A stretch of 64,000 nucleotides of DNA, from positions 21,438,062-21,502,061 of the forward strand of contig OU612074.1 of assembly GCA_914767715.1 (NCBI GenBank). The letters run 5' to 3'. The notes beneath the pieces are model-generated. The model was not told where the DNA came from, did not search any database, and saw only the letters and a list, made by a program, of their open reading frames with translations. A program made the translations under genes and the position numbers. Shown here piece after piece: positions 4,949 to 64,000 of the stretch. The number at the start of each line of letters is the position of its first letter. The first letter of the stretch is position 1. Source of the stretch: Membranipora membranacea. Its lineage: Eukaryota; Bryozoa; Gymnolaemata; Cheilostomatida; Membraniporidae.

Positions 4949-5059
4949 TCCTGCGACATTGCTCTTCTGATTGGCTTCAATTGCCCAGCAGCCTAGTACC
5001 CACTTGCTAGAATACAACCAAGTGTAACTGAACCGAATGCTCTACAAAGTATTCTTGGA

Positions 5060-10835: not shown

Positions 10836-11905
10836 ATGGATTGGAAGTTGTTTGCAGCAATCTGGCTTAGCTTTATAATTGTGACAAACCCCCTTCATTT
10901 CGGCCTGCTTCTTAGATCGCGAGATCTTAGACAAACACCTAATGGAAAAGTTTTATTGGCCATAGCTCTTGCAGAAATATACCACAGTATGATGGCTATT
11001 ATATATAAAACAGGACCACATATACCCTCTGAATCTGTGGAAGCGAATGATATTTACTTCAAGGCTTTATTTGAGGCGTGTGGTCGCAGGTAGTGCACAT
11101 TTACGCTATTATATCACTGCATTTGGCTGTTTCGAGCGTTTTATGGCTTTGTGCTATCCATTCAAACATCGAGCCGATGTTATTGTGACAAATATAGGAA
11201 AGTTAATGCTTGCTCTTGCTCTCTTTCTGCATCTGATGAATTGGAGCATCTATGTTGCAAATGGAACGGTTCAAGGACCAAAAAGGTCTTATGATTCAGC
11301 ATCTGATAAAATGCCATCAAGGAGAAGCAGAAGTGCATCAGAGAATTATACTCATCAGAATGATAATTTTTTCCCAAATGACACCCTGATAAACCAAAAA
11401 AAGAGGAAAAGCTAAATCTGAGCTTTTTAGAAAATCAAACATTGAGAAGTTCTGGTGATCTAAATGGGACTGTAACTGGAGTAGCTGAGGAACCTAAGGA
11501 GCATGCAGCAACAAATCTGGTTGCAAAATTTTTCTGAAATAGGATCTACAAGTGATCCCCACAGTTATCATAATGCTCATTACAATTCCCCTGACCATGA
11601 GAGAACTCTTAGCTATGAGGAAAGTTGGAAACATTTCAACCTGCCAGCCAATAGATCGAGGATTAGTTCTAGCTGTCATCTACATACTGATCATAAGTAC
11701 AGTGGCGCTTATATATCTTTTCCTCTGTATGTTATGAGCAGCATCTACAAGCTGCCAAGGAAGGTTGTGATACATTTTTTGGTCCTACATGATGATGTTT
11801 ATGGCATATTGAATATTGCTGTCTATGTCCTCATGAACTAAAAATACAGCAGACATTGAAATCTACTTTCTTCAACATATTCAATGTCATAAAAGCTGGC
11901 AGCTC
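10836..11905 (+). pseudogene. Class A GPCR pseudogene, three or more frameshifts
   Basis: A full-length copy of the local receptor family in broken frames. TM1-TM2 are in one frame (10836-11093, starting MDWKLF). TM3-TM4 are in the next (from about 11088), with ERF and MALCYPF kept. TM5-TM6 lie in a third frame (about 11550-11737), entered after an in-frame stop near 11547. TM7 with NIAVY returns to the second frame (about 11738-11841). A TAA replaces the codon after the last MN, and recognisable tail sequence continues to about 11900. All seven spans align with the intact copy at 1867-2952, so loss of function appears recent relative to the duplication. Confidence 0.88.
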
Positions 11906-14835: not shown

Positions 14836-15564
14836 TCAGCTATGTTGTGACATGCTACGTTCCAAGCAAATAAATGATTGATAGCAATAATGATATTTGT
14901 TACTTTTGTCCACAGTGAAAACTTTTCTTTGAAATCAGTAATCAGCATTCAGTTTGTCGAAACAAAAAAGTCGAAAAAGTTGATCAGGGGTAAAACACTG
15001 CCAATAATTTAACTGAGTTAGTCTTATTTTATTGAAGTTCCATTGAGGATCAAGTTTGAAAATCTTCTGTTGAAAATTGAGGTTGTTTTTGATTTGAGGT
15101 TCCATCAGCCATTTCCATGTGCTTATTGATATTCTGCTCTAGCACCTTTTACTGAGTGCTCCTTGTATTTAAACTGAATCATTCTAGAATAAACTATGAA
15201 ATGAAGGAAGATATATGCATAATTTACACCCTCATGACTGGTATGGCATATGAATGCTTTCTATGGCTACTTTAACTAGCAATGGACACATATTATCCAA
15301 AATGCACAGCTCCAAAAACAAATTAACGGATATATTAACATCTTTTACAAGAAAGATGTCTATTATAAATTTTTTAATTAAGCTCTGTGTTCAAAGTGAG
15401 AACTTAATTGCTTTCGGCTTCATAAAAAGAAAATAAATACAAATTTTAGCAGCTAATGAAGGACAGTATTCCCTTGCTCAGTAATTGCAGTTGTACCAAT
15501 CATCAAACAATCTGTTGAACTAATTACTTGAACTAAGTTTATTCAAAATAATAATCACAATGAA
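14836..15564. other. No gene recognised; 5' flank of receptor
   Basis: AT-rich sequence upstream of the next receptor copy. No clear promoter element can be assigned. Confidence 0.4.
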
Positions 15565-16669
15565 TTGATCAGAAATTTTGTGAGTTTCACTTCGAGTGAG
15601 AATCTCCTTAGGAAGGGTGAAATAATGCTGACAATAACACCGAGGCAGATCATGTTCTCTGTCGGCTGGCATGGTGTCCTGGTGGTTACCAATTTTCTCC
15701 ACACTGCCTTACTGCTCAAGGTGCCTGATCTGAGGTTGACACCTCATGGAAAAGTCATAATTGGGATGGCTCTATCAGATATTTACTTCAGCATGTGGGT
15801 CATCATCAGAAAAACTGTCCCTGATATGAGTACTAGAAATGATCAAATGATATTATATCTCCAAGCACTGGTCAGGACGGGCCCTGTCACTAGTGCACAG
15901 CTACGCATCTATATATTGGCATTTGGCTGCTTTGAACGTTTCATAGCTGTCTGCTATCCATTTAAACATGGTGCTAATGCAGTTGTTCTGAACATAGGGA
16001 AATTGATGTTGACTCTGGCCATAGTTATGCATGTGTTGAACTGGAGTGCCTTTGTGACCAAAGAGATGATAGGATCAAGAAAGTTAGAAGCATCGGAACC
16101 AGCTGGGCTGTTCTTAGATAGCTCAGGAACATATGCAGAGAATTTTACGCAACAAGCTGACACCACGTCCAATAGTTGAGCTCAACATGAGGGAGGAGGA
16201 ACAAATTCCAGTAAAAGAGCCAATAGCAGCACCTTCACAAACAACAGGTAACTCTGGGAGGGACAGGACAAAGGAAAGAGAAACAACATTGCTAGGGAAA
16301 GTGTTCTTTGAGTATCCCATTCAAGTACTACCTTCCCTTGTAGTTCTACTCATCACGATTCCTCTTACAATACAAGAGCTTTTTTCCATGACGAAGAAAG
16401 TTGGTGACACATCTTCTGGGCGGCCAAGAGATCGTGGTTTAGTTCTAGCCGCAATCCACATTATGATTATCAGTGCTATATCACTAATATGTCTTGTGTG
16501 GACATTCTTCATGAAAATCATCTTCAAGTTGCCAAAAGCAAAAATTATATTTTTCATAGTTTTGCATGACGAGGTGTACAACGGCATACTCAATGTTATT
16601 CTATACGGCTTGATGAACAAACCATACAGGGAGACACTGAAATCTATCTCCAGTTCATGCCATTTATAG
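15565..16669 (+). pseudogene. Class A GPCR with one frameshift in extracellular loop 2
   Basis: TM1-TM4 lie in one frame (15565-16179) and TM5-TM7 in the next (16133-16669). The spans and motifs match the intact paralogue: ALSDIYFSM in TM2, CFERFIAVCYPF after TM3, and NVILY in TM7 with a YRETLK tail. The two frames overlap only inside the long, variable loop between TM4 and TM5 (16133-16179). One single-base change there would restore a full receptor, so this could be a young pseudogene, a sequencing or assembly error, or less likely a tiny intron. The second Met (15625) aligns with the second Met of the 1867-2952 gene and is the likelier start. All other motifs are intact. Confidence 0.8.
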
Positions 16670-16789: not shown

Positions 16790-17800
16790 TTAATTGGTCA
16801 CCTTTGGTCACCTTTCACCGTTGTTGTCCTACGCGGGTGGCAGGTTTCTGCTTGATTCCAAATTCTACCAAACTCCTCCATCGCGTTCGATCTTCAACAT
16901 CCGATCCATCTAGATCAAGCCATCTAAGGTCTGAGTTCACCGTGCCGCACCCCTTTTGTTTTGGTCTACCCATAGGTCACACTCCTTCGACTGTCATCAC
17001 TGACACTCTCCGCATGTTGTCCTCACTTTCTCTCCGTCTAACATGCCCATACCACTGCGTTCCCTTTCTCCTAATCAGATCTTCAATTGGCATCACTCCG
17101 GCCTCTGCTTTTATTTCCTCATTTCTCTTGTGGTCCTCTAGACTTATACTAATGCAATATCGCAACACCGCATCTTGCAGAATGACATCTTATCTGCCAA
17201 TGAACCTGTGATTGGCCATGTCTCATTTCCATATAGCATAGCTGGTCTGATAGATGTTTTATACATCAGCACTTTCAGTTTATTTAGCATTTTCTTGTCA
17301 CAGAGCACACAAGACGGTACTCTCTCCTTATTCCAAGCCTTGGATATTCTCAGATCTATCTCCTTGCGGCAACCTCCATCTTGGTGGATTGTTGTGCCCA
17401 AGTACTTGAACTGAGAACATTCAGGCAGGCTTCCTGCTTCTTGACTCCAATACTTCTTTATCCTGATGCTCTCTTGGTCTCCAACTGTTGGCAAATGCTC
17501 TGTTTTCTTTCGGCTTATCTTCAATCCAGCTGCTTCCATCATCTCTCTCCAGATCTCTAACCCTCTTTCTAGTTTCTCTCGATCACTATAAAAAAGGGCC
17601 AGTTCATCAGCAAATAGCATTACCCATGGGCTATCCTCATTGATGTATTCTGTTAGAACATCAATTACTATGATGAAAAGCAGCGGGCTTAGTGCCGATC
17701 CTTGATGTAATCCATCTTCAATGTGGATCTTGATAAACTCATTGTCCAAAATTGTATCCCAAGAATATGATACCCGAAGAACCCTTATCTGATGACGGTC
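16790..17800 (-). mobile_element. RTE-like LINE fragment (reverse transcriptase C-terminal half)
   Basis: On the minus strand a 201-residue frame (17749-17144) carries the palm of a non-LTR reverse transcriptase: GLHQGSALSPLLF, then LFADELALF where the catalytic FADD has become FADE, then LKISRKKTEHL and FKYLGTTI. It continues in another frame (17168-16977) with the thumb and C-terminal segment (RRKGTQWYGHVRRRESE). The spacing and wording of these motifs fit the RTE group. The 5' half, including the endonuclease, is missing, and the altered catalytic motif and frameshift make it inactive. Confidence 0.8.
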
Positions 17801-22300: not shown

Positions 22301-25300
22301 GTGGCTTTTAGATATGTAATGCTTGATCAATAAGTGTACAACAAGTAGGGGGTTATTCAGCTCCTTCTTTCCTTTAAAATCACATCATCAGAGATAATAA
22401 TTTTTGTCTTTTGCTGGACTTACAGAGGCAAACTGCTACATTTTATATGTAGTATATGCATAACAGTAGCTATGGAAAAAAATTGTTAACTTTGCCACAT
22501 ATTTGATGCAGTCTGTTTTTTTCGACAAACATGAGATTCATTTTGATAGATTTGATCTCTTACCTTTCAGTGTCAACCGGTTTGAGAATGTGATTGAACT
22601 CTCTCATCACCAACCATCTCAGCCACGTTAATTGGTTAAGGAAGTATTCATCATGTGCGAACTTGAGCTTCAAATGAAAAGTTAACAAACAGTATCAATA
22701 CATTAAGATATACTTTATATATACTACTATATCTCTGTCAATTGATCTTTTGACACAGGTTAAAACAAATACAATAAAGTATTAAATATTTTCACTCACA
22801 TTCTTGTCACACTTAATTACATATTTCTGAACTTACCCCTTCATACCTCTTATCTAAGGCTGTATTATTGAACAGCCAGTCTGGGTAGCCAATATTTTCT
22901 CCCATAGCTGCTAACTGAAAGTATTAGGGAACGTTTTAAATTGCCAGATAAAATTACGCTGCTATGATATTTATATTTGACCATTAAAATATGTCTAAAC
23001 TATTATAGACATGACATTTGATGGCAGGATATCTGTGGTAAATATAGAAATTCCCTCTGGAGATTTCATTGTGAATTTAGCAAAATCATCAAGATGTTTT
23101 GTCAGGTTTAATGATTTGCAATGTTGACAACCACACACAGCTCATTTACCAACTTTACCTTTTCTTTTGCTAACAATTTCGTTGCATCATCCATCCACTC
23201 AGATTCCTTAAGCATTTCATCAAAGGCTTCCTTCAGCCCCTTAACCATATCCATCAGCTTTATACAAGATCAAGTCAATATTGTATAAATCAATTAATAG
23301 CATCGCCTGTATTTTGTGTCATAATGCATTAATTACTAGTGTTAAAACCAAGTTCTCATTTACATACCTTATCCATCTGATATCAGCGGATATTTCGACA
23401 AACTCATCATTCCATCATTCAACATTTTGACAGATATGCATCGATAGTTAATGAAGAATATATGACGGTTCAAATTTCGTAACTTAAAGCCTACCAAACA
23501 GCTTTTGCATGATAGCATTGAAATTTTTTATAATGCAAAACTGTCATAACCTAATCATAGATAACTGCCTCACTATAACATGAGTTGGTCTTTGGGTATT
23601 CTTTAACTAGCAGTAATTTTTTACCGGTTTCTTTGGGTCTGTTTTGAACATCTTGCTCACAAAGAGCCGACCCACGGCCCATCCTAGTCTGTTGTTTGTA
23701 TAATCTGAACACTTCAACTCGCGAGGTTTTTGTTCTGGTATTGAGAATGCCTCCTACAAACACAAGCCACTCTCTGTAAACATCAACAACAACAATTGAT
23801 TACTCATCAATTTACAGAGTAATATCCTTTCCATTTGAGAGAGAAAAATTTTTTTTTAATTTGCAAATATTTTTGCAGTTGCAGTGAGTATTTGAAGAGC
23901 ACATTTTTCCAGGGTGTTTAGGGTAATATCTTAAAGTTAAAATTTGAGCCTATTCAATGGCATAGCTGGAACTATTATACATTTTTCGTAGATTGGAATT
24001 TATCAGATATACGTATTATAATTCGATGACTTTGATTAAAAAGCTTTATATAGAAGCCATCTAGCTGTGTAAATAAAATCCTCTTGAGACCTCCTGTGCC
24101 TGGAGATAATATTGACGGCATTACCTTGGTCATATAGAATGTCATAAAGGTTTTACCATTTAGCGAGTCAATTAATTTTTGACAAGATATTCCATGTGGC
24201 ACACACACATATACCTATGGCACAAAATAGGAACCAAAACCTGTGAATGACCCGTTATTTGGCCCGAGCACTTTCTATTCATTATATTACAATCAAATTG
24301 ATCTACATTGGCCTTGTAAGACAGCATACTATATCAAAGCAATCACTCAAACAATCGCCATCCAAGACTGATCTGAAAGTCATTTTTGGTTTCTTATTGA
24401 ATGTTGAAATAAAAGAAACCTACTGATGGATGGCTAAAAATAGTATCACAAGGTATACAATTAGTTTTTCGAAACAAACTGGATGAGTTATACTCCAAAT
24501 TGAGGCCATTGGTATGATGCGATATGAGAATATAAATCCAACAGAAACTGAAAAAATGTGACCTGTTCAGCACACTTCTCCAATGCTACTGCATGATTAT
24601 ACTGCACTTAGTTATACATTCATTTAAAATAATGGATAAGCTTACTACACTCAACCCTTAACCCTTAACCCTTAACCTTTAACCCTTAACCCTTAACCCT
24701 TTAACCTTAACCCTTAACCCATAATCCTTAACCCTTAACCCCTAACTCTTCACCATTAACGCTTAACCCTTAACCTAACTTTAACACTAACCCTAACCTA
24801 ACTCTTACCAGACTTAACCTAATACATACATACCTTGTAAAACTTATTCTCTATGTCTATTAGAGCCTGAGGTAAGTAACCGATCCTGTACTCTGTGATT
24901 CGCCACACTAGATAGTTTGCCAGAACTCTCGCTGGTGTTTCTGATACTATATCTGACATGTTACGTAGGAAATCAGTTGCATAGACAACAACCTCAGTAT
25001 CATCTTCAAATGTGAAATCCACATCCTTGAAGAGCATATTCATATATGTTTTCCAAGGAAACTGTAAAAGTGAAAGATTGAAAATATACTCATAACTTTG
25101 TAATCAACCCATTGAGAAGTTTGGAGAGGAGTTTATTAAAAAAGTAAAATATTGGTTATCCAATCTACTGTTGCAAGTCACATGAGAAAAAATCAATCCC
25201 ACTCATTCTTTTAATCCATATGTGTTGTATGGCCAGCATTTGCCTTGAGCAGAATTGCTGTTGAGACTGTCTTTTCTTGTCATGTTCATAACCTCAGTTA

Positions 25301-25925
25301 AGGAAGTCAGGTAGATCATCTTCTTTTAAAATGACTACAACAGCTAGTGTTAACGCTCACCTTGTCAGAGATTATTGTAGAGAGGTCGCCAACCTTGAAT
25401 TTGCGGTATCTTCCTGGCCAATCATTCGCTTCCTCATCTGTTAACGCTATCTGTATATTATGGGATCAGAAGTTATTTCATAATATATTTTAAATGAAAT
25501 TCACTTGTAACAAAAATTATAAAAACCTCAAATAAAGGATTTGACTTTTTTCCCGCATATAAATCTTGTTACGCGGGATTACATTTAACATGTCTGTGTC
25601 ATTTTTATGTTTTTTGGCGAACAGTATGCCATAAAACTAAACGCAATCACTTTAGTTGGTACTATATAATAACTTGAGATAAGATATCATATTTCAGGAT
25701 GGTTGTGATTACAAACATCATAACACACAGTTTCGCGGAGGCTTAACAAGATGACAATGAGCATTAAAATCAGATTATGCTGACAGTATTCATAGATCAC
25801 TAATCAAAGTATATTGATTGATTTCAATGATGCACACCGTTCAAAAGTGACGAAAGTGACAGACCTGTGAAAGCCACGATAGCATTTGAATAGACGTGTG
25901 ATAAATGTTGCTATAGATCAATATG

Positions 25926-25980
<55 letters not shown>

Positions 25981-28900
25981 TACATAGTTACCTTTGCCAT
26001 GGATATTTCGAATTCAATAACGTCATCAACGTCTTTGTCAACAGTTTCAGGATCAGCTTTGAGAAACAGTGCAACCTCTTTAATAAATAATTTGTATGCT
26101 GCTAACTCCTTAGCGAATTCGGGTTCAAGGTAGTACTGCCTGTTATACAGACCTAGATAGAACTCATCCAGCTACAAGGGCAATAAACTCACTAGGAAAT
26201 CTTTTTTCGCAAATAGATATTCTGGTACAATCTTAATTCACAGGTTTGAATACAAAATAAACGAGCCACACCATCAAAAAAAGCTCTTGTTTTGATTATC
26301 GCTGCATAGATAATGCAATCATGGGTTTAATATTCACATAAAATCTGAAAATAGTATGGTTTGTATTATGATAACAGAAAAATAATCAGCATTCTCATCA
26401 GAATTTTTTTTAAACTTTTATGGGCAGTTCATTTATTCCTCTAGGGGAAAATTTTCTGAATAGTGCCGAAAAAAAGGAAATAAAAATAGCTTGCGAATGG
26501 ATTGTGAATGGTTTCCATAAAACAGCCATATTTTTTAATCTCCCATAATTGTATTTTGCTCACCTGGACTATATTTTTTGTGTTGTCTTTGTCATCTGCA
26601 GAAACCCAAATGTCCAGCAGATACCCGTTGTTCAACAACCTCAGTTTGGTGAGAGTATCTAGTAAATCAAAATCCTCGGCTTTCCACTTTGGATCAATCA
26701 TCGGCCAACCACCTAGCTTCGCTTGCAGCTTCAGCAGTGGGGCAACTCCCAACTTCTCTATTTCATCTAAAGATAATCAATCAACATGAATATTTATACT
26801 TTACGTTTTTCTTGATGTTATAGTTTTTTTCTAGCTTGATTATTACAAAGAAAAAATTTGATTGCACAGACAATGTAATATGTCATGGGATTGTTTAGTA
26901 TAAATGAGTCTTCAAGCTGTAGCTGAATTATTCTACGTCTCAAAATCCTTTGAGGAAAAGTGGCCTACCTGTATCCTTACAAGCATCAAAGAGATTTCTG
27001 GCTTTCTTTACAGAATCAGGGTCCAAAGATATATTATCTTCTTTCAAAAACTCTGAAGTAAAAAATTAATATTTATGAAATACCAAACAACAAAACACCA
27101 GAGCTTCAAAATTTTTCATTTCTCTTATGTAATCGCCAGTCAGAGATATTTTTCTATTTTCAGGACCAATCTTGCCAAACTCAAAGAGGGTTTTCTTAGT
27201 CATCAATGATAACTTATAATGTAATTGATGTGTGATCAAATATAATGTGGCTCCTCAAAAGTAATATAATGAGAATACTTTGGAGTAGTCATTAAGCTGA
27301 AAATGTGTCATCGTCACATTGCTGATTGAAATGAGGGTATATCTTCATTGTCTTAGTCAATTTGATGTGTTTTACCTATGATTTTAAGCGCTCTTTCATT
27401 GTCCAGCTTGGAACCCACTGAATAGGATGCCCTGTGTTCAGGAATTTTTGTTCTAGCAATCCATCCTCCGCATGCATATTCATAAAAGTCCTCACACGGA
27501 TCAGTGCTGGAATTCAGGTTTGACAGTATGGTGTTTGCTACAACAATATAAAATGGTTGAAAGCAAGAGAGAAAGATCAGCATGTCCTAAAACTGTGAAC
27601 ACATGAATTCAAATTTAGAGAGAGGTTTCGGATTAAGGAATAGGATATAGGATATAGGAAGTTTTGAATCCGCTACCATAATTGATCATTACCTAATGTT
27701 GTCTGACCATCACATATTATGAGTCGATATTAAACCCATTATATACAGCCACCGTTCCAATTATGATGCAGTGGAAAACAAAAAACTCGATCATATACCA
27801 CAAGATATTGTATCATAGGAGGTATATGGCTATGAATGATTCGAGTATATCTTAACACATTGTAGAGCAATATCACAATGGAACTTGTTCCTGAAAATCC
27901 ACTATCGAACATCAGTTCTTAAAGACCAGTTTAAATTCTAATAATTCTCACCTGTTTTCACACACACCTCGGTTTTACAGATGTTCAATTCATCTTTCAG
28001 CTGATCTTCCTCTACTCAAAACGTGATAGAAAACACGGTTAGATAACACAAATAGGAAGTATTTAAATTACATTGTGTAGCGTCTTTTTGCTATAGAGTA
28101 AGAGGTGGAACGGCTAGGCCGAAATGAGTACGGGTCAAGCAACGGCACTGCGTTTCATACCAAAGAATTGTCTGACAATTCTGTACAATTCTAGAATTGT
28201 CAGAAACTGACCTATATATCAATACCCAACCAGCAACCATTATTGTGTAATTAACCCTGCCTGCTAAATAAATTACTTTCATTATTGGTATTGTATAGCC
28301 ATAGTATAAGCCTTTACAGTTCTAGTTAATATCATACAATTGGATATGCTATAATCAATAGATATTGCTGTGCAAGGTAGCATCAAAATCTATATTGTGG
28401 GAGGCCCAGGTTCAGATCAGAGCTTTGCTACTAATAAAAATGTACAACATCGCTCCCCAGATGAGCGAGGAATTACTTTGTATCAACTGTCCTACATGCC
28501 TAAGTGGAGAGAAGTGATATGTGAATGAGGCCATATTATCCACAGAACCACTGACTACTGAAAATATGCTGACTGATGCTAAAAAAACTCAAACTTGGTG
28601 TCACAGCAAGTAGTATGAGTGCTGATTATTGGCATAGTCTAAACTACGCCCCTTGTGATTATTGAGAGTGAATGGCTTTCAGCTATTTCTATTTGTTGGC
28701 CAAAGATGCTCTGAGCATGGAGTTAGCTCTGAATGTTATGGTATGTGGGCTGAGGGAGGCAAAGGTAAATCATCTATCGTAAGCCTGGTATATATTCATT
28801 ACCTGTCTACAAAGGAGCTTTTGATGTTATACTATATCATTCTCAGCCATCTCAGTTATACGGTGTACAGGAAGCAATTCTGGCATAGTTCTCTCTCACT

Positions 28901-38800: not shown

Positions 38801-39359
38801 ATATCACTTTTAACAGGTTGCATTTTTTCAAAATGCCACTGCCTTCAGTGGGCGCTGATGTGAAGGAAAATACAACCAAATTGTTACGGATGGCTCGCAT
38901 TATGATTCTGGAGAGTATGTCATCTTCAACCAGACTAGTGGCATTTAAAGCAACTTGCAAGATTTCCCCAAGGATTCATATGTGACAGACCTCATACAAA
39001 TATCACAAATTATAAAGGCCTCTTTAAGTACAAATTAGATTCATTTTAGAAATTGAGATATGAATTTGTTGCTAAGTTCGAATATTCACATCAATAATTT
39101 ATATTTATATACAAAAATCATGCTGGTGTACTGTGACCTAATAATGATGTTCTTAAGGTTGTATGACCAGCTCACTCCTCATAGTCTGGATAATTATGTT
39201 GACTTGTTTTGACACTATATTGTCCGCTATGAAAAAAATATCAAAGTCTCGTTTCGACAAATAAAAATCCACATACTAATTAAAAAAGTATAAAAAAAGC
39301 AAATGACATCTTGCAATAGGAGCAGGTGCCATAACAGTAGGGTGTCAAACATCCAGATT
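35801..39359. other. No gene recognised; one GT-rich microsatellite
   Basis: AT-rich intergenic sequence. It includes a GTGTGTGC/GCGTGC microsatellite at about 36632-36685. Short open stretches at 37281-37588 and 38365-38643 on the minus strand have no recognisable motif. Confidence 0.4.
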
Positions 39360-39361
39360 TC

Positions 39362-40610
39362 GACATGTTTAAGATTTGAAAATTAGTTTCATTATTGTTC
39401 TGTACTGCTTGTTCATGATTCCGTATATGATTCAATAAACCATAAAGACCATCATGTAGAAGTCTCAATGCTATTTTCAACTCTTCTGGCACTTTGTAGA
39501 TACTCCTAAATAGGTACAAAGGAAGAAGAGATATTAGAGCGATAACACTAATTATCATTATAAAGATTACAGCTTCATGTAACCCACGGTCTCTAGGCTG
39601 GCCTATCCCGTTTGCCAAACTTTTATCTTGCCTTGGAGTTCTCTGATGGTCGCAGTCATGGTAAAGAATATGACTAGAAGTGCTGGGAAAAGTTGGACCT
39701 CATATTGAATGAGTATTTTCATAACCAAAGTTGTCTCTTCAGCTTCTTTCCTATTGCGATTCGAATTATTTATGACAACGCATCCTTGTCTTTCACATCT
39801 GCATCTGGTGCCTCCTTCTCCCCCTTTGTGACCTCTTCCCCTTTGCGTCCTCCTCTTCCCTCTTTGTGTAGTTCTCCCTGTCCATTTCCTTTTCTAGCTC
39901 CTGCGCTGGCCCCTTCTTCATGCCCAGTCCTTCCTCCCACTCCGAACCCACCTTCCGCTCCTGTTCCGTTGCCCGCCCCATCTTCCATTCTTGATCTTCC
40001 GACTCCACCTGCAGCTTGCAAATGAGTGACACTCTCTGGCAAGTGTGTAACGTTCTCCGGCGAACTAGTGACATTCTCTGGCAATTGAGTGACGTTCTCT
40101 GTCAAATCTTCACCTAACTCTAAGGCCAATTTACCAGATCTTACAGCGTCTTCCTTCCAAAAATAGATGCTGCAACTCATTGCATGCAGTATAATGATCG
40201 TTATCCAAATTATCTTTCCCAAGTTCTTCACAACAAAGTTGGTTCCATGCCTGTACGGATGGCACAATGCCATATAACGTTCAGAGCAGGCAAAAGCTGT
40301 GATATAGTAACGCATCTGTCTACAAGCACGGAGACAGGCTACCAAAAAGCTTCAGCATACAGTTTCCAAGGCTTAACCAGAACGAAAATAAGTCCACTGT
40401 CATCAACAATGTTTAACGAACTAAAGTACATGTCCAACAACGCCATAGTCAAGAGAACCTTGCCGCTAGGTCTAAACCTCAGGTCAGGTACCTTCAACAG
40501 CAATCCAGAATGCAGTAGGCTATATTTGCCACCACTACCAAACTATGCCAGACAGTTGGAAAAACAGTCCAACCAAATGTTGATGGCATCCTCACGTCTG
40601 ATGTCACAGA
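39362..40610 (-). pseudogene. Class A GPCR pseudogene with glycosylation-sequon repeat
   Basis: All seven spans can be followed on the minus strand, but in changing frames. TM1 (WHSLVVVANI) is followed by a shift before LLLKVPDLR and TM2 (MALLDMYFSS). Another shift comes before TM3, where SERY and MALCHPY replace ERF and MALCYPF. TM4 and a long loop lie in the open 191-codon piece (40345-39770). TM5 (LFPALLVIFFTM) is in another frame. TM6 and the start of TM7 are in 39618-39280, with a final shift before YGIMNKQYR. The loop holds three ENVT units and an ESVT, then a Gly/Glu/Lys-rich stretch. Five or so frame changes make it a pseudogene. Confidence 0.85.
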
Positions 40611-43264: not shown

Positions 43265-44612
43265 CATTGCTTCATGGATATCATCATGGAAGCAAGGTGG
43301 ACTACCGGTGGACTACCGGTGGACGTGCTGATGATAGATGATGTTTCACTAGCAGTCGTCACCATCTGCCTACGGTTCGTTAGGCAGCTGTGAGTCCAGT
43401 TGATGACATTTGGGTGCATGTCAGAGTTTCATAACTTGTTGATTAGCACTGATGGAGATATTGTGTTAAAAGCACTGGTGAAGTCAATGAACACAGAGTT
43501 GACAGAGTTCTTAGAGTTACAATCTAAGTGTTCGCTTATAAGGTCTAGAGTTAGTAGAAGAGCATCATCAGTCGACCTCCCAGGACGGTAGGCAAACTGA
43601 TGTGGGTCGGTTACAAGCGGCAGATAGTGTTTCACTTGCAGTCTCTCAAGGCATTTAGATAATACTGAGGTTAAGGCTATAGGTCGAAAGTCCTTGACCG
43701 CACATGCTGATTTGATCTTCGGAATCGGCTTAATATTGGAGAGTTTCCATTGGTGTTGGAATATACCTTGAGATATACTGTTGTTGAAGAGAGTGCGTAC
43801 TGGTTCTGCTAGTGTGTGAGCCGCTGTTTTGAGGAGACTCGGTGAGATTGAGTTCAGCCTACTCTAGACTCAATCAGAGCAGCTCCAGCCTACTCTAGAC
43901 TCAATCAGCGACTGGTGTCACAACCACAAGCTGCTCATCAATACAACCAAAACTAAGTCACTGACCTTCACTAATGCAAGAGACAATCCACCATCTCCTG
44001 TTCTCTCTATCAACAACACCAGCATTGATAATGTCAATGATTACAAGTATCTAGGCACAACTCTCACGTCAAAGCTAAAGTTTGACCTAAATACCGAGCT
44101 TATCACATCTAAAACTCGCAAGAAACTGTTTATCATGAGTAAATCACGTTACATGGGAACATCAGATCAGATCAGCTCATGCTAAACTGCTATCAAACAT
44201 TTATTGAGAGTTCCCTGCTTTTCCACTCCACTGCCATATATCACCATATGTCAGAGAAAAACAAAGCTGACCTATATAAAGTGACACGTACCGCTGAGAA
44301 GCTAGCCAACACTACTCTACCACAACCACAACATGTTGTTGAACAGCGACTCAAGACCAAGGCTCTGAGAATAACCGCCAGTATTGACGTTTGACATGCT
44401 ACCATCTGGTCGGTTTCGTGCTGTAAAAGCACGTATAAATCTGAGGCGTAATTGTTTCCGTGCCATTGCAATTAATACATTGAACAAATAAATCTTAGTC
44501 TATGCTTTTTCCACTTTTATTTTTTTGTATTTATACTTGCATTTTAAGAGCTCATTTTACAGTTTTATCAGCAGTCCAGCAATTTTATTTATCAGTAGTG
44601 ATATAATAAAGG
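43265..44612 (+). mobile_element. CR1/Rex1-like LINE with inverted 5' half
   Basis: The upstream half is antisense. A minus-strand frame (43635-43429) carries HQFAYRPGRSTDDALL and FIDFTSAFNTISP, the middle of a Rex1/CR1-type reverse transcriptase. The downstream half is sense and starts just after the junction at about 43855. It has KLLINTTKTKSLTF, YKYLGTTLTSKLKF and, near 44400, the terminal LPSGRFRAVKARINLRR. The 3' end is a short TACATACATA run at about 44610. Thus the 5' and 3' parts of one element face opposite ways. The junction shows a duplicated CAGCCTACTCTAGACTCAAT. Confidence 0.75.
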
Positions 44613-51585: not shown

Positions 51586-53343
51586 CTTCTGGTGAATTTA
51601 AATTGCTTACAGAACAGGATGTTTCTACATTGCGGAAAGAAAAATGTACCCCTAGTGTTGATGTTCTACCACAATCACAGTTCACTTCAATGTTCTATTC
51701 TATGTTACCGATCATTTGTAAGATTATTAATTGATCATTATCTACCGGTGTATTTCCCCCTTGTAAGCGATCACAGATAGCCCCTTTGTTAAAATCCCCG
51801 GCTATCGATCCAGACATTTTAAACTCGTATCGTCCAGTTTCCAATCTGCCGTTTGTCTCTAAAGCAATTGAAACTGCAGTTTGCAACCAGCTCATAGCAC
51901 ATCTCAATGTAAATCAGCTTCTTGATTCACATCAGTCAGGCCATAGTGTAGAAATGGCTTTTCAGCAGGTCTATTCTTCATGAGCTTGATAGAGGGAGGT
52001 CTGTGTTTTTAGTGCTTATTGATTTGTCAGCGGCTTTCGACACTATTTCTCATACTCATCTGTTATCATTGTTAAAATCACATTTCAATCTTGGAGGCAA
52101 TGTGTTAAAGTGGTTTTATTCATACTTAGAATCTCGTAGTTTCCAAGTTAGGATAGAAAATGACTCATCGGAACCTAAACCACTAAATGTGGGTGTGCCG
52201 CAACGAAGCGTGCTTGGGCCAGTTCTGTTTAACTGTATTATGTCCCTCTTACCTCCTCTTCTCAGGAGCCTAGGTATCTCTTGCCATATTTACGCTGATG
52301 ACACACAATTTCGGGTTAGCTTTGATGATACTCATGACGCAATTAATAATGAGGCCACTCGACGAAGAATTAGTAAAGCTTTTTCCATCATCAGCTCTTT
52401 CATGAAGACCAACCACCTGAAACTGAACCTAGATAAAACCATGTTCATTCCCTTTTCCCGCAAATGTGATCCCAGCTTATACTCTCCGTTGAAACTAGAT
52501 GGCTGCACAGTTATCATGCTGCAATTGAAAGTGCGCAACCTAGGTGTTGTTATGGATTCCATGTTGACATTTGATAGTCAGATTAGAGAATTAAGAAAGT
52601 CCTGTTTTTTCCAACTACGCAGATTAAAGGCTATCAGACAATTCATACCGTCACATCATTTTGCCACGCTCATTCATAGTTTCATCACATCTCGCATCGA
52701 TTTCTGCAACTCCATCTATTTCACCCTCCCAGACTTTGCCCGCAATCAAATTCAAACTATCCAAAACAGCTGCGCAAAATGCCTCACTGGTGCACAGCGA
52801 TTCGACTCTGCCACCGCTGCACTATAGTCACTCCACTGGCTTCCTATCAAAGCCAGAGCTCAATTTAAAATTCTTCTTTTTGCGTACAAGATCTATCATT
52901 ACTCTCCTGATACACCATCTCATTTCATCAATCAATTCTACATTCCTGAACCTCGCCGTGTCACTAGAAGCAGCTCAAAAATTATCCTCGCATCCCATCA
53001 CACCTCTCGCTTGGCCACATTCGGTGGAAAATCCCTACCATCATCACTCGTAACCCTCTGGAATCCCCTGCCCCCTGATTTGCAGCTGTTGCCGAGCCTT
53101 ACCGGTTTTAAGTCCGCTACTAAAAATATTTATTTAGGTTGTACTTTGAGTAATTAGATTTTATTTTATAGATTTATATAGCAGTATCAGAATTATGTTT
53201 TAATTTTATCCTCATGCACATATTTTATGCATTTTATTTCACCTTTATTTTATTGGTTTCAATGTAATAACGCTTAGAATTTTTTGCTCCGCAATTTTAT
53301 TAAGCGTTTCACAAATAAACTTTATTATTATTATTATTATTAT
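51586..53343 (+). mobile_element. L2/CR1-like LINE, 5'-truncated, mostly open reverse transcriptase
   Basis: The plus strand has SYRPVSNLPFVSKAIE (51820s). After a stop and small shift, a 274-codon frame (52003-52827) follows with LIDLSAAFDTISHTHLL, VPQRSVLGPVLF (usually VPQGSVLGP), HIYADDTQF, HLKLNLDKT and LGVVMDSMLTF. After a TAG the C-terminal CR1/L2 segment continues (LHWLPIKARAQFKILLF and LPSSLVTLWNPLP). The 3' end carries a (TTA/ATT)n tail at about 53320-53343, usual for this group. The YADD catalytic motif is intact, but the stops and missing 5' end show it is dead. Confidence 0.9.
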
Positions 53344-56340: not shown

Positions 56341-59300
56341 ATGTCAGAGGAGGGAGGAGAGAACTTACCGAGGGATAATCTGACACGAGCTGATACATGG
56401 AGAAGAAGGTAAGAGAAGTATGCGTAATCAGAGAATAAACACTTGTGCTCATTGTGATACATTCAGGTTATGTTGATTGAAGTAGATTCAGTTTGCATTC
56501 ATAACAGCAACAGTTATGTTTATTATACTGATCTGTCTTAAACCAGTGGTTGATGATTAGAAGGCAGGTTTGGAGTATAAAGTCACATGCATGAGGGGAA
56601 CCTCATAAACCTTACTGAGGTCAATTGTAGGATGCCTTTTGTGTACTGATATTGACTTGGTTGTGGTTTATCTAGGCAAAGGATTGGGTGGAAGAACTTG
56701 GGCTTAGTTCCATATATTGAATGCAAGCTAACTTTGCCACTATTACTCAATTTTATCTCTCTTCTGTGTCTCGGTTTGCAATTCAATTACATAATACACT
56801 GTGATTACAGTATTACAGAATTCTTTGTGTAGGTTTAAGTTAGGAGTGATAATTCCATGCAGAGCCTAAGGTATTAACGATTCTATGGTATATTTACAGA
56901 CTAACTGTAGGACAGCTTGCTATAGGCATTGCAGGGATGCTACTTGGAGTGACTTTGTTATCTATTGATGCTGGGCCGGAATCAACTGGGTATGATGTGA
57001 TGATTGGTTCAGTCACAATTGTCAGTGGTATAGCCTCACTCATCACTGCTGGATGTACAAGGCTAACTAGACCCTCATTAGGAGTAAACAGGCGGGTAAG
57101 ATAAATCATCCTGAATCATGTTGTCATGTCTTACTGAGACAAACCTACTAACAGCCAACAGTCAGTTGACCGGTGTATATTCTAACATATTGTTCAACTG
57201 TCATCTGTTAGTGTTGTATTTATGGTTCATTTAAATAGAAAATCTTATGGCCCCATACATCTGATTGATTGTGAGAAATTAGCCGTCTCTTGGCAGAAAT
57301 TCCAAAGCAATCAACTAGTTCTAGTTACTAGTTTCAATAGAAAAAAAAATTGTCATGATGTAAGCAAATACTAATAGCTTGTCGAGGAATAGTGCAGTAA
57401 GATTTTGTTGTGATTTCAAAACCTATATTTTTTTTGCATTTTACTTTATCAGGAGGGGTTATTTCCCCTTCGCAACCCCTTCATCATAATGTGGCCGTAA
57501 ACTTACAAGCTATTATGATTGCTGCTCTGAAGACTAGAACAGGTTCGAAATGATGAGGACATCATTGCCATTTTATTGGGCTTGTTGTTTCTTTTGATAT
57601 AATGGTGCTGACCATGGAGGCTCTAGTTGCTGGATAAGATTCACCTTATCATTGAGAGCCCAGCAACAAATTTTGTCTTATTGCCTGATTTATCAAAGGA
57701 ATTAGGCCGCAAAGGCTTTTTTTGACGTGGATGGTGGAGTCAAGTCCATTGAAAATCTCAAAACAATTGATATTCATTCTTACAGATAGTGCGCATCATG
57801 GTTTTCGTTTATAAGAATATATTATGATCAGCCTAAAATGTGCCAATTTACAAAAGTCTGGTATAATTTCCCGAATGTACTTGGCTTCACATGTGAGAAC
57901 AATAAACTTTCTTTTGACAGAATTTTCAACGCTACAGACAAAAAACATGTATGCCTTTGATCGTCTATGGTGATCTTGCCAAACTGCTATACTAGTAAAT
58001 GACTTTTCTGTTCTGTCTCCAACATCTTTGATCTGTTTCGAATCATTGCCTAATTTTTCACATAACCTCATAAAATTTAAAAGGGTCACTTCATAACATG
58101 AGATAAAAACTCAATTAAAGTCTAGGTAACATTGCCTTTTTTGTCTCATATCTTATTTTCTATACTTCGGTCTATCATTTGAGCGAGTTTCAGCATTAGA
58201 ATCCAAATATGGAGGAAGTTATTGGATCTTAAACCTCGTAGGTATTGGCTGTCAATCAGGATTGGGAATCAGTGGATTAGAGGATTCAGAAATGAAGCAT
58301 GGATTTGTACAAAAGTTACGGAATACACCATTATGCACATTGAGGGTTTGAAGTGAAGGGAGATCCTCGTCCACACACGCGTTTGATTCATACAACTCAG
58401 TCATGTGGAGGTTCCAAAGAAACAGAACAAATATTATCTAGACAAACAAATTGATGTTGTGGTGTAGTAAGCGCCCTACTGTAGGTTGTTAGCATTGAAT
58501 TCGAAGCATAACAATGTCAGATTAACATTGTGTCTCCTTTGTCAAAGGTGGTAGGAAGCATCGTTCTGAATACGCTTGATCTGCTATTAAAGTTTGGTGT
58601 TATTACAACCTTTGGAGTGTTCAACTTTATTCCTAATGGCTCTCTTTCACATGGATGCACAAAGGAATATTGTAAGGTAAGTCATGAGATCAATGGGAAC
58701 TGAGATGCTGTGTCGTAATATAGTGGCTAAATCGCGTTACAGTATTCATAACGTACACTCACATTCATCAACAGCTTGGTTTCACTTCAAATATATTACA
58801 GCACATTTAAGATTTAGAAATTTTAGTAAAATCATCCCATCCTGGTCCTTACATTGTTTGTTAAGAGGTTGGAGAGATAACATTCTCCAGATATAACCGT
58901 ACTTATCTTAATATCTATATGCAGGTTTACTCTCTGGTGCTCACCATATTCTCAATAGAGATTATACAGTTTCTAGCTGGTATCGCCACCTATGCCATTT
59001 CATGTCGACGGCTTAAGGTGAGCACTAATACAACCCAAGCAACTCCGCAGTTGACGAGAACCCAAACCCAAGCTGATGCCTACTCAGCAGGTGAGACATT
59101 TCTGGGCTGTTAATTATTAACAAATTTTCAAACAGTTGAATCAAACTATAAAACCAACTAAAATTCAAGCCGATAGACAAAACCTTGTCCATAGACAGAA
59201 CCCACAAACAAATAAGAGGCTCAGGATAAAGACATCAAGTCCATCGCTCATATAAATGACAAAGCGCTAGTACCATTCCACAAACTGGCACAGTCGTCAT

Positions 59301-60970
59301 GACTTCTGTTAATGGATTTAAATGAGAAACGAAAAAATGAGTTCTAGTATTCTGATCTTCTAGATGTAGCGATGAGGACAGCTAATATCTCAACAGCAAC
59401 CTCAGTGCTGAGTGAAGAGGTTCTCAGTCGTATCAAAAGATGTCAAATTCATTCCAAACACATAAAAATAGGACAACAGATTGGAGGGGGGTTCTATGGA
59501 ATTGTATATAAAGGAAAATATCAGAGGCCAGGTCAATTAGAAATAACAGTCGGCATCAAAACACTCAAAGGTAGGTGTGTATATGTGTGTGGTTATGTGT
59601 GTGATTATGTGATTATGTGTATGCTTATTACTGTGATTGTGATGTGTTAATCTGGATTATCTTAAAATACTGAAATGCATGTTATTAAATTGTCCGCCTG
59701 CGCAAGTGTCAGCTACTCTTTGGGATTTCCTAACTTGAATATTTGTCTTGAGCAGAATCTTGTTATTTGTCAAATCTGTAGAAAAGATTTTTCAATAGCA
59801 CAATTCTACACTATTACTCTACACTAGTATACACTATTATTACTCATTCAGTAGAAACAGCTAATAATTCAGAAGTCGAGAGCTTTCTACAGGAGGGAAC
59901 AATGATGATGTTCTTTGATCATGTGAATATACTTGAACTCATAGGAGTTATTTATGAGAGTGACATCCCTCCAATGGTTGTTTTACCTTTTATGGCTAAC
60001 GGTGACTTGAGATCCTTTATCAGGAAAACCGAGGTGGGTTTTCAAATAAATCTGTATTGTGATCATCTATTGGCACATTAAAACAGGCTTTGTAAATGAA
60101 CGACACATTTTCAAGGTATTTGTTAGCCTGGGATTTAGGTCAATACTGGGGCCTTGTCTGAATTATGGGTTGTGGTGGATATTGCTTCTGTTGTGTTATC
60201 TACTCCTGAATCAATATAATAGTGCATTTCAGAATGGACCCATGTGCTTGTGTTATGGTTCTGTTTTGATTGGCTGACCGGTTTTGGTTTGTTATTGTAT
60301 GGAGTTCTCTGCTCATGTTGGGTTTGTTTGTTGGTGGATTGTTTGTTTGGCCTGGGCAACATAGAGTGAGAGCTAACAGCAACGCACTGTAAACCGAAAG
60401 TAGGAGTTGTTAACGATTCATTACAGCCATTGACATATTTGAATCTAATGTTTTGAATACTTCAACTAAGCCATTGATGACCGTGATTTCTGAATATTTG
60501 ACATGTTCTAAATTGGATAGGTATAAAAATTATAGCTGATGGCCAGATATAGCTTTGCATTATCCAGATAAAAATTATGCCAGTTATTAATTATTTCGAC
60601 ATGTTTCATATCAGTAAAAAGCCTACTGTTTAGTTTCCTTTTACATTCTACTTTGTGGTTGATCTATGTTACCCAGCCTAACATCAACAACAAACCAACA
60701 CACCCAACCTGAGTAGATAACTCCATATTGTTGGACTGAATCCCAGTCTAGGTATTTTTACCATTTGAGAATGTGCACACCTGGTGAAAAAAAACATGTT
60801 CAACGTATGCATTAAAGTATTATTATTGATATGACACTGATTCATATTTTTTTCCACCAGCACCTGACGTTTGGTGATGCGTGTCACTTTGCATATCAGG
60901 TGTCAAATGGAATGTCCTACATGTCACAGCAGCGTTTTGTGCATCGTGACTTGGCTGCGCGTAACTGCAT
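56341..60970 (+). CDS. Four-span membrane protein fused to MET/AXL-like tyrosine kinase (3' end outside window)
   Basis: Exons 56341-56408, 56900-57095, 58548-58676, 58925-59090, 59364-59570, 59852-60033 and 60861-60970 join in phase at GT/AG sites (352 residues so far). Residues 1-25 are polar, without a signal peptide. Four membrane spans follow at about 26-45, 55-75, 92-114 and 135-157, with Cys125 and Cys130 in the loop before span 4. The arrangement resembles CD20/MS4A-type tetraspans, weakly. After a linker the kinase begins: glycine loop [12 protein letters not shown] (226-237), VGIK with Lys252, FLQEG with the helix-C Glu270, [12 protein letters not shown] hinge, and HRDLAARNC with catalytic Asp346. 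The hinge and FLxEG wording match the MET/AXL group. The DFG and activation-loop exons are not found before 64000. Alternative: two adjacent genes, the second starting at Met 59372. Confidence 0.75.
58125..58280. repeat. Single arm of the fold-back element family
   Basis: Diverged copy of the left arm of 45519-46163, from TCTCATATCTTATTTTCTAT through ATGGAGGAAGTTAT to GATTGGGAATCAG. It lies in the intron between kinase-gene exons 2 and 3. No matching second arm is visible next to it. Confidence 0.75.
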
Positions 60971-60994
60971 GTAAGTTTTCTTTTTATTAGTCAT

Positions 60995-61107
60995 TGTGTG
61001 AATTACTCACTATTTTTTGTGTATTACTCACCACTTTGTGTGTATTACTCATTACTTTATGTGTACTACTTACCACTTCATGTGCATTATTCATCACTTT
61101 ATGTGTA
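60995..61107. repeat. Tandem repeat in kinase-gene intron
   Basis: About five copies of a roughly 22-base unit, TTTGTGTATTACTCACCAC with variants, begin some 25 bases after the donor site of the HRD exon. Confidence 0.85.
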
Positions 61108-62264
61108 TATTTGTGCAGTCCAATAAGCAACTATGTTGAATGAGTGATGAATGAGAATTTCATAGTCAGCAATGCTTTACTTATTAATAATTATAATCCA
61201 AAAAAATTCCAGGTTCTCTATGGTTATAATCATTGAAACCATTAGTGTTTAAGAGTCGGATGTACTGTACAGCCCTAGTAAATTGTCGCTTCTTTATAGT
61301 TTTAGTCTCTGATATATATTCATATCTGACCCTGAATATGCATATGGCACTATATGTATGATTACTGTTAACACTTTCTCATATTTGATTGGTCCAAATG
61401 TTCAAAAATATTACAGCCAACCCATTGTAAACATTTGTTAAGTAGATTTCCCGTGTTTTTGAAGGTTAATACTTTGACGATGTAATCACTGACGCAAAAT
61501 TATATGCTGATTTAATTTCTCAACAAATAGCCATTTAACATATATGTGCCATATGATACAAATTTATTTTCACAAATAGTTTTGATAATTCTCATGATAT
61601 CTGTTGTGCGACGCAATGAGTTGTCCCCTCCACGAAAGAAGAGGCACAACACTAAAAGTCACTTAAACTGGCGCGCAAATGAGGGGGTGCACGGGGATTA
61701 ATCATGTGTGGTGACAGGCTAGACCATTGGCTGATCAGTGTAATTAGAGGCGGAGACTGGCCAGTATTTTCACCACTTTCCGATGCTTTTTTTGGGGTAA
61801 AACTTTATTGGACAAATTTATCACACAATTCCGCTTTAGCATATCAAATTCCCATTAAAAAGAATTCACTACTGCTCCTCTTATTTCCAAAAAACCAGGA
61901 GGAATTTGAATGCTGTTAACCCCATTTGATCACTTTACGTTGTCTGGGCCTTATATACCCATCTATACCCATTTAATGCCTAATTAGACTAATTGGCCAG
62001 CTATAATGACGAACTCATACTGTGGCACGGCAGTTTTGGAGCAGTTGTTTCCCTTGATATCATAGTCTCTACCAATATTTATGCCATGAGACTTCAATCG
62101 GGAACACTAACGCCATCAAGGTCAGCTATACATAACAGCTGACATCTATGTTACATTATTAAAGACACTCAATGAGTGCAATAATGAAGATATTGATGCA
62201 TATGCCATCTATGCCGGCTCAATCCTATATGGGCCGGGTCCAGAAATATACAGTAAGCTAACAG
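61108..62264. other. No exon found
   Basis: AT-rich sequence, presumably intron of the kinase gene. I searched the plus strand by eye for the expected DFG exon and did not find it. Confidence 0.4.
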
Positions 62265-62337
62265 CTCCTCTATAGGGGCAGCCCACCTTCTGTTTTGTCA
62301 TAAACAGGGCCCTCTGTTTTGTCATAAACAGGGCTAA

Positions 62338-62420
62338 CAGCTTTTTGGCCTATTGGCTAAGATCAAAGTGTCACTGCCAATGGCCGATTAGTGCCTGTTT
62401 CAGTTTCTGGCAGCTTGCTG
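62338..62420 (+). pseudogene. U2 snRNA-derived sequence, copy 1
   Basis: Begins AGCTTTTTGGCCTATTGGCT and continues AAGATCAAAGTG, then CTGTTTCAGTTT further on. The homology covers the 5' stem-loop of U2. The branch-site pairing region and Sm site are missing. Confidence 0.7.
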
Positions 62421-62591
62421 CACACTTATGATAAGGAGGTCCACCATGACCAAACCTCTAGGATGCATTCTAGTTTACTAGGATGTATCACACTCTCAGT
62501 ATGAGGACTCCGGGCAACTTGCGTCCCTCTTTAGGGGCAGCCTACCCCCTGTTTTGTAATAAACAGGGCCCTCTGTTTTGTCATAAACATT

Positions 62592-62672
62592 GCTAACAGC
62601 TTCTCGGCCTATTGGCTAAGATCAAAGTCACTGCCGATGGCGTTTAATACCTGTTTCAGTTTCTGGCAGCTT
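62592..62672 (+). pseudogene. U2 snRNA-derived sequence, copy 2
   Basis: Better preserved than copy 1: GCTTCTCGGCCTATTGGCT then AAGATCAAAGT, followed by TTTAATACCTGTTTCAGTTT, which recalls the stem II area with deletions. No intact GTAGTA and no Sm site, so it cannot serve as a spliceosomal U2. Confidence 0.75.
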
Positions 62673-63169
62673 GCTGCACACTCACGATTAGGAGGTCCTC
62701 TATGGTCTCACCTCCAGGATGCATTCTAGTCTTCTAGAATGTATCACACTCTCGGTACGAGGACTTTGGGAAACTTGCGTACCTCTTAAGGGACAGCTCA
62801 CACTCTGTTTTGTCATACACTAAGTTTCCCATGCTGCGAATGATCGTTCGCATCCTATTGATAGGATTTTGGCTGTGATGTGTAGTTTGGCTTGTTATGT
62901 AATCAAAACACAGCACAATATCAATAGGATCTGAACACACTCGGTTTGTGAATGCGAATGACCAATGCATACAAAATTGAGTATCTTAATTGCTTCCATG
63001 CTGCAAATGAAGGGCTAAAATTGGTCAATGCGCTTTCACACGGCGCATGGAAACATCGTGATAAACAGGGCTACCAGCTCAATCCTATTAGATGGTATGA
63101 TGGTGTCTCATAGTCGATAAAACAGCTGGCATCAGTACATAAAAATGCAAGGACAGAACATAGATTTAT

Positions 63170-63930
63170 ACAGTATGCTCATAGTGCTATCGCTATTAGA
63201 CGGGCTGCAGATACTGCAGTATCTCATAGTAGATTAGAAGCTGACATCAGTACATTGACACATACTAGCGGATCCGCATCGAGTGATCGCTATAAGGTAT
63301 CGAGGTATCATACTATAGCAGAGTTGCTCAACGCAGTACAGCATCAGGAAATCGCTATACCACCTCCGGGTGTGACGGTACCAAGGTACCGTATTAGCAG
63401 ATTACCAGAAGCAGTTCAGCACCAAGAAATCTCTATAAAGATACCATATATCACCTTTAGTAGATATGTTTACAGCGGATTGGCACCCAGCAATCGCTTT
63501 ATACCACACCCTACGAGAGTGGCAGATACCACAGTATCACCTATAGCAGATTAGCTTACAGCCGGTGTATCAAGGTACCATATTAGCGACTAGCTAACTG
63601 TTGGTCAGCGCCAAGCAATCTCTATAACCGATACCAATGGTATGGTATATAGCCGATTCGCTGAAAGCCAGTCAGCGCCAAGCAGTGTCTATAACCTATA
63701 CAAAGATATCACATATTATAGTGAACTAGCTCATGGCAGGTCAGAACCAACCTATATACCTCCTCAGGAGATGACGATACAAAGTATCACATAGAGCGCA
63801 TAGCAGATTTGGATCACCAATCTGTATATACCACCACAGTAGTGGATGATAGTGCACTGTCACATTATAGCAGATTTGCAGATCAATCTCCTCAGTCTCT
63901 GTACCACCTCAGGAGTGGAAGGTATAATGG
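63170..63930. repeat. Degenerate tandem satellite to the window end
   Basis: About nine to ten diverged units of roughly 75-85 bases can be followed by the recurring words TATAGCAGATT, GGTCAGC(G/A)CCAAGCAATC and TCTATAACC or CTATACCACC. Units differ by many substitutions and small indels. The 99-codon open stretch at 63255-63554 is an effect of the repeat and not a gene. Confidence 0.7.
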
Positions 63931-64000
63931 TATCATTATTATAAAATATTGGAAAATCATAACCACTCAACCAGGAGTTATCACTCATATAAGCAGTCAA

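Follow-up and report, generated by a model that had tools for sequence, protein, structure and literature searches.

Receptor tyrosine kinases are single-pass proteins, and their signal enters through an ectodomain. Can such a kinase also be carried by a membrane module that crosses the bilayer several times and exposes next to nothing outside the cell? This question is raised by a gene of the bryozoan Membranipora membranacea, referred to here as W, that lies on the plus strand of a 64-kb window, i.e. the whole stretch of DNA that was analysed (OU612074.1, designated C10, positions 21438062–21502061). Judging from the exon structure, it is very likely that a four-span (tetraspan) module and a MET-like kinase are encoded by W as a single gene. 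There is good reason to regard the predicted product as a multi-pass receptor-like tyrosine kinase that combines a four-helix membrane module, a juxtamembrane segment of about 74 residues and a complete MET-like kinase. In the open-licence literature, as covered by titles and abstract openings, no such multi-pass kinase was found to be described.

With somewhat less assurance, we favour a broader scenario in which a bryozoan lineage fused a CD20-like module to MET-like kinase exons at a phase-1 intron. This would have created a new class of multi-pass receptor tyrosine kinases, preserved in two or more intact copies. Its members would respond to membrane partners, to lipids or to clustering and not to a large extracellular ligand, and the CD20/MS4A family would not be confined to vertebrates. 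If this is true, a natural MET-like kinase carried by four spans, with next to nothing exposed outside the cell, would show that this kinase can be coupled to a different type of input. Since a single-span relative and CD20-like genes occur in the same genome, the exchange of the ectodomain would be directly testable.

Exon structure, copies and membrane topology

The seven exons of W within the window are exact to the base, are separated by GT–AG introns and chain with the phases 0, 2, 0, 0, 1, 1, 0 into 352 open residues, in agreement with a preliminary description of the locus. That description let the gene piece end at 60970, which did not hold. The kinase continues in three further exons (8–10) that were located in the 10 kb directly after the window (L009), in phase and with a stop codon (window-extended positions 64176–64338, 64956–65092 and 65264–65468), and the complete protein comprises 520 residues. 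The features are as follows.

56341..56408, + strand: exon 1, start codon and predicted cytosolic N-terminus (residues 1–22), phase 0; donor ranked 3 of 409
56900..57095, + strand: exon 2, spans 1 and 2 together with the conserved inner loop; phase 2 at its start (within an Arg codon), phase 0 at its end
58548..58676, + strand: exon 3, opening in phase 0 with VVGSIVLN... of span 3; also encodes outer loop 2, which carries sequon N118 and Cys125/Cys130; donor ranked 1 of 409
58925..59090, + strand: exon 4, span 4 and the initial portion of the juxtamembrane linker; the donor after 59090 is kept in copies A and B
59018..59023, + strand: alternative donor within exon 4 (AAG/GTGAGC)
59091..59363, + strand: intron 4, phase 1, junction of tetraspan and kinase; TATAAA at 59147 and 59251, no AATAAA/ATTAAA
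59364..59570, + strand: exon 5, end of the juxtamembrane segment, kinase glycine loop and catalytic lysine K252; acceptor kept in A and B
59852..60033, + strand: exon 6, kinase N-lobe, helix C with Glu270, hinge
60861..60970, + strand: exon 7, kinase catalytic loop HRDLAARN (344–351)
60971..64000 (plus 175 bases past the window end), + strand: intron 7, followed by exons 8–10 at window-extended 64176–65468

Among 409 GT sites between 55.0 and 61.2 kb, the donors of W take ranks 1, 3, 4, 6, 7, 8 and 9. The remaining two of the top nine lie at 56199, 5' of the ATG, and at 59017 inside exon 4, the latter tied with 59090. Long open frames of the window, receptor-like ones and those of transposons, served to train a codon score. 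In all seven exons this score is positive in the true frame, which also outranks both alternative forward frames, and introns 2, 6 and 7 score negative in every forward frame. On the other side of the balance, a reverse frame outscores the true frame in exons 1, 2, 3 and 7, and of 20000 randomly drawn open sets of non-coding sequence, 562 reach the joint coding score of the four tetraspan exons. Hence, the coding score taken by itself amounts to moderate evidence. Scans of the window for Rfam families and tRNAs gave no matches. The patterns for DFG, APE and related motifs that were tried did not occur between 60971 and the window end. Intron 7 contains tandem arrays of a 21-base unit and of a 256-base unit in two copies (window 60997–61108 and 62267–62817).

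The gene has relatives in its own genome of 339.3 Mb in 18 contigs (designated C2, C3 and so on). With the tetraspan part as query, 17 matches were obtained: four in W itself, eleven in a cluster on C5 (29385470–29410711, minus strand) that comprises the copies A, B and C, and two overlapping ones in a fragment on C9. Copy B is intact, with ten of ten exons, the same phases and GT–AG sites as W, and 522 residues. Copy A matches all ten exons, yet its exon 6 is broken by a unit of about 22 bases that is repeated some six times and carries stops, which may reflect either genuine decay or an artefact of the assembly. In copy C, the matches are confined to the tetraspan part and contain stops, as does the C9 fragment. 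At the DNA level, exon 1 of W is 91% identical to copies A and B. Across exons 1–4 a single in-frame indel of 6 bases separates W from A and B, whereas the alignments of intron 4 contain 87 and 103 gap columns. On C3 near 5.78 Mb lies a further kinase piece, in which HRD is replaced by HRE; the 4 kb of sequence inspected upstream of this piece revealed no tetraspan exon.

Four hydrophobic segments precede the kinase of W, at about residues 25–45, 54–77, 88–115 and 132–158, with peaks of 1.8–2.0 on the Kyte–Doolittle scale in 19-residue windows. They correspond to the four spans proposed earlier, and the Cys-containing loop of that proposal is the second outer loop with Cys125, Cys130 and a sequon at N118. 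The two outer loops are only about 8 and 16 residues long, and an in-frame TGA stands 24 bases 5' of the ATG, which leaves no room for a long extracellular part in W. The most plausible arrangement of this four-helix module would place both of its ends in the cytosol. A single-sequence AlphaFold model has helices at 12–45, 53–78, 87–115 and 127–162.

Several points speak for caution with respect to this topology. The counts of Lys plus Arg, i.e. 5 at the N-terminal end, 0, 2 and 2 in loops 1–3 and 5 on the C-terminal side, fit a protein with both ends in the cytosol only loosely. The AlphaFold model reaches a mean pLDDT of 41, and the predicted four-span fold is based on hydropathy and on this low-confidence model, with which a Foldseek search returned nothing usable. 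No relative of the tetraspan part was recovered from the protein database, neither among 1079 candidates at E values up to 0.001 nor among 582 at E values up to 10, in a search that requires shared five-residue words.

The kinase domain and its junction with the membrane module

The tyrosine kinase domain of W is complete (PF07714, E 1.7e-90, residues 220–478). Its landmarks are the glycine loop at 227, K252, E270, HRD at 344, DFG at 364, RDYY at 374 and SLEAM at 392, of which K252 and E270 stand where the preliminary description had put them. The kinase is probably active. Among solved structures, the matches include MET (1.5e-77), RON (7.2e-76) and MER (6.5e-68), while the top rank, above MET, is held by a chain of 678 residues that carries the label EGFR and is matched over two stretches. 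From the earlier label of a MET/AXL-like kinase, the MET half is borne out and the AXL half is not, with MER as its best representative; as far as sequence comparison goes, the domain is MET-like rather than AXL-like. In the 520-residue protein, only kinase families exceed the cut-off, and no match to Sema, PSI or IPT domains was found.

Phylogenetic comparison leads to bryozoan relatives. In a tree of 27 kinases, W and copy B form a pair (100/100) that groups with kinases from C2, C3 and C6 of the same genome and from Watersipora at 98/96, the C2 and C6 rows being incomplete. A tree of 43 N-lobe rows places W within a mostly MET-like group of 14 rows (89/90), with echinoderm MET-like and sponge rows outside. 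Two MET-like kinases of M. membranacea, on C3 near 1.218 Mb and on C6 near 2.232 Mb, have exon blocks similar to those of W. Identity between the C3 gene and a Watersipora protein amounts to 70–83% in four kinase exon blocks; for the block with the glycine loop, where the alignment enters an intron, it is 45%. The C3 gene has one strong span (3.47). By reading, its span exon ends and its kinase exon begins in phase 1, and the last span is followed by 28 residues to the end of its exon in both W and the C3 gene, given the span boundaries set by the analyst. Upstream of the C6 kinase exon, about 3.9 kb contain no segment above 2.0 and one of 1.98.

W thus resembles MET/RON-type receptors, such as the Watersipora 'hepatocyte growth factor receptor-like' protein P0001 and the C3 gene, in its kinase domain, the YY motif of the activation loop, the short spacing between hinge and HRD (43 vs. 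44 residues), the kinase exon blocks and the phase-1 intron between span and kinase. It differs from them in lacking a Sema/PSI/IPT match and in having four hydrophobic segments in the place of their single span. Taking these likenesses and differences together, we are fairly confident that the kinase of W is kin to bryozoan MET-like receptors, with the exons for ectodomain and single span exchanged for four-span exons at the phase-1 intron.

A search with the kinase found 191 relatives, of which 120 were listed; many of these are incomplete, and 66 have at least 200 residues before HRD. None of the 120 listed has more than two candidate spans ahead of the kinase at a threshold of 1.6. It was on these 120 matches that the earlier statement of one span in known receptor kinases was checked, and two of them show an additional segment that is weak or N-terminal. 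Between the last span and the glycine loop, W has 74 residues, a length usual for the relatives (median 72, range 40–161, n=34 with both elements found), although this comparison used a span threshold of 2.0, at which the spans of W (1.8–2.0) would themselves fail. The MET/AXL/Eph-like receptor hits from sponges (Amphimedon, Dysidea, Halichondria, Geodia, Ephydatia) have related kinase domains and at most one strong span, with an extra weak or N-terminal segment in two of them. They differ from W in a hinge-to-HRD spacing of 51–57 (14 measured) and in falling outside its tree group. As a conceivable precedent with several spans, the choanoflagellate HMTK family was weighed and set aside; the description consulted mentions PTB domains and a kinase, not spans. 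No relatives of the W protein were found in the prokaryote genome contigs or viral contigs searched. Clusters of related tyrosine kinase exons with the look of tandem arrays occur on C4 (20.87–21.02 Mb) and C9 (0.86–1.00 Mb).

Intron 4 is the point at which a single gene could fall apart into two. In that case, there would be a small four-span protein, terminated at 59113 or behind span 4, next to a soluble kinase that starts from Met189 (59372) under a promoter in intron 4, an arrangement that the preliminary description had itself named as its refutation. Read-through of exon 4 does meet a stop, announced there as near 59111 and found to end exactly at 59113, after 7 further residues in W, 24 in copy A and 45 in copy B, giving proteins of 193, 212 and 233 residues, respectively. 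TATAAA occurs twice in intron 4 of W (53 times in the window), and the site at 59147 reads TATAAAA (17 times in the window). In addition, introns 1 (W and A only), 3 and 4 of the copies still align at 70–76% identity, and therefore duplication of a block could have carried two neighbouring genes whose order was inherited passively. These observations count against a single gene. The comparison of copies, however, points the other way: the donor that closes exon 4 and the acceptor that opens exon 5 are kept in W, A and B with matching phases, whereas the read-through stop of W and its TATA-like sites are absent from A and B. Furthermore, intron 4 contains neither AATAAA nor ATTAAA in W, A or B, the canonical C3 relative also joins its span exon to its kinase exon in phase 1, and the length of the juxtamembrane segment is unremarkable. 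We thus consider two adjacent genes quite improbable and a single gene with a spliced junction the better account.

Conceivably, this single gene could give rise to two forms, namely the full kinase and a kinase-less tetraspan that acts as a dominant-negative protein or a scaffold. The alternative donor at 59017 scores equal to that at 59090 (6.41), and if it were joined to exon 5, translation would terminate directly behind span 4, yielding 163 residues without a kinase. Copies A (GTGAAC) and B (AAA/GTGAGC) have weaker versions of this donor, so that its use is doubtful, and a second form of this kind appears unlikely.

Origin of the four-span exons

The preliminary description had likened the four-span part to CD20/MS4A proteins, a comparison that fails by direct profile search and finds backing in gene structure. 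To our knowledge, the known CD20/MS4A members carry no kinase. In its four predicted spans, its putatively cytosolic ends and a second outer loop with two cysteines, W would resemble members of this family, including those of the M. membranacea genome. A search of the genome for the CD20 family gave six single-exon matches, all below the cut-off and none in the tetraspan-kinase genes. Gene structures were compared for three of these six:

C9 near 6.72 Mb, C2 near 23.54 Mb and C2 near 23.57 Mb: exons for spans 1 and 2 of the CD20-family genes L066, L067 and L069

When the exons for spans 1–3 are joined, two of these genes pass the Pfam CD20 cut-off of 27.9 bits with 34.5 and 36.5 bits, and they beat nearly all shuffles against solved MS4A chains (reached by 0–1 of 1000). 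In all three genes, the exon for spans 1 and 2 is entered in phase 2, its first base completing an Arg codon, and a GT (preceded by AAA in L067) allows it to end in phase 0. The exon that follows begins with VVAA.V.N, likewise in phase 0. W is built similarly: the first base of exon 2 completes Arg23, this exon ends in phase 0, and exon 3 opens in phase 0 with VVGSIVLN. Hence, W and these genes share a phase-2 intron before span 1 and a phase-0 intron before span 3. Alignment to L069 is also above shuffles, being reached by 5 (W), 11 (A) and 8 (B) of 3000. By reading, the next exon of L069 starts in phase 0 and contains a hydrophobic stretch, but meets a stop. Since intron positions and phases are common and one of the CD20-family genes of the genome aligns above shuffles, descent of the four-span exons from a CD20-like gene is rated as probable, with moderate confidence.

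Solved MS4A chains were compared as well. The pairwise scores were reached by 56 of 3000 query shuffles for CD20 and, for MS4A2, by 174 (8ywa), 3 (8k7t) and 42 (8y81), and the mean over the four chains by 6 of 3000. The controls CD81, claudin-4 and three window frames gave z values of −1.8 to 1.2. The tetraspanin and claudin families were not listed for the tetraspan part at E values up to 10, and its pairwise z values are −0.1 against CD81 and −0.7 against claudin-4.

A less favoured, though seriously competing, explanation is that the fusion is real and the four-span part is unrelated to CD20/MS4A, belonging to another or a new family with a chance hydrophobic likeness. Most of the direct tests side with it. 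The CD20 profile gave no match at E values up to 10 for any of three whole tetraspan sequences. Spans 1–2 alone scored 12.4 bits (E 0.17), with CD20 third of four weak families, and spans 1–3 scored 9.1 bits (E 1.7), with CD20 third of three; among ten decoys of spans 1–2 (nine shuffles and the reverse), there were no CD20 matches. The hhalign probability against solved MS4A proteins is 0.1%, obtained with shallow profiles. A small MS4A profile was equalled by 99 of 2000 shuffles, and its halves by 1015 and 121. Alignment to L066 is weak or not above shuffles (314, 120 and 41 of 3000 for W, A and B, respectively), and CD81 itself reaches a z value of 2.8 against the MS4A2 chain 8k7t. Consistent with a fortuitous likeness, a 2010 survey noted that such short similarities are also found in unrelated membrane proteins (PMC2826416). 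These results are set against the shared intron positions and phases, the L069 alignment, and the rarity of shuffles that reach chain 8k7t or the mean of the four chains. Although a CD20-like ancestry is preferred, the tetraspan domain fails the CD20 profile and is not filed here as a CD20/MS4A member. The 2010 survey also held that invertebrates are without MS4A genes (PMC2826416); the CD20-family genes predicted in M. membranacea speak against that view and for the presence of the family outside vertebrates.

Selection, a possible switch and the genomic surroundings

Substitution patterns bear on the function of both halves. For the kinase exons 5–10, dN/dS between W and copy B is 0.18 (p about 1e-14). 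For exons 1–4 it is 0.54 (W–B, Fisher p 0.0066), 0.43 (W–A, p 0.00017) and 0.54 (A–B, no p value), and for exon 5 alone 0.26 (W–A) and 0.50 (W–B). By these ratios, the tetraspan exons and the kinase are both under purifying selection. Selection on the tetraspan is only moderate, however, and the value of exon 5 between W and B is as high as 0.50. As one copy is broken and others are decayed, the family may also be young and lineage-bound. The broken exon 6 of copy A, together with the decay of copy C and of the C9 fragment, could even suggest that the chimera as such is decaying or non-functional. This is very improbable, given that W and copy B each have an open frame through all ten exons, together with the kinase motifs that were sought, and that both halves bear the mark of purifying selection.

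The distribution of conserved residues hints at how a functional fusion could work. Within the membrane parts, the inner loop (residues 78–87, 10 of 10 identical between W and B) and span 3 (22 of 28) are best kept and outer loop 1 is least (3 of 8), which fits a working face in the membrane and the cytosol. Binding of a large ligand alone would hardly be possible with outer loops as short as those predicted. The CD20-like four-span module would have replaced the ectodomain and the span of a MET-like receptor at the phase-1 intron, leaving the kinase in the cytosol. Its switch would most likely consist in oligomerisation, or in the binding of a lipid or of a partner within the membrane to the four-span module, by which several copies are gathered. 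The clustered kinases could then trans-phosphorylate the paired tyrosines of the activation loop (RDYY), upon which the tail tyrosines in NYMRV and DYHKY might dock adaptors. In the kinase tail, 35 of 42 residues are identical in W and B.

The remainder of the window contains genes and elements of other kinds. Receptor-like multi-span frames are found at window 1870–2961 (− strand), 10812–11838 (+), 15532–16666 (+) and 39283–40351 (−). The first and third of these loci are clearly alike (z about 14–16). One of six frames scanned from the receptor-like loci has a weak match to the rhodopsin family (0.0049), and some of the loci look split between frames. Exons of an M13 (neprilysin-type) peptidase lie at 24822–27586 (−), with two frames over the Peptidase_M13_N cut-off. 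At 4149–8380 (+), long frames with breaks between them resemble the gag-pol of a BEL/Pao-type retrotransposon, a label given by reading, with no family search. LINE reverse-transcriptase-like fragments, labelled in the same manner, are located at 17147–17800 (−), 43432–43863 (−) and 51735–52824 (+).

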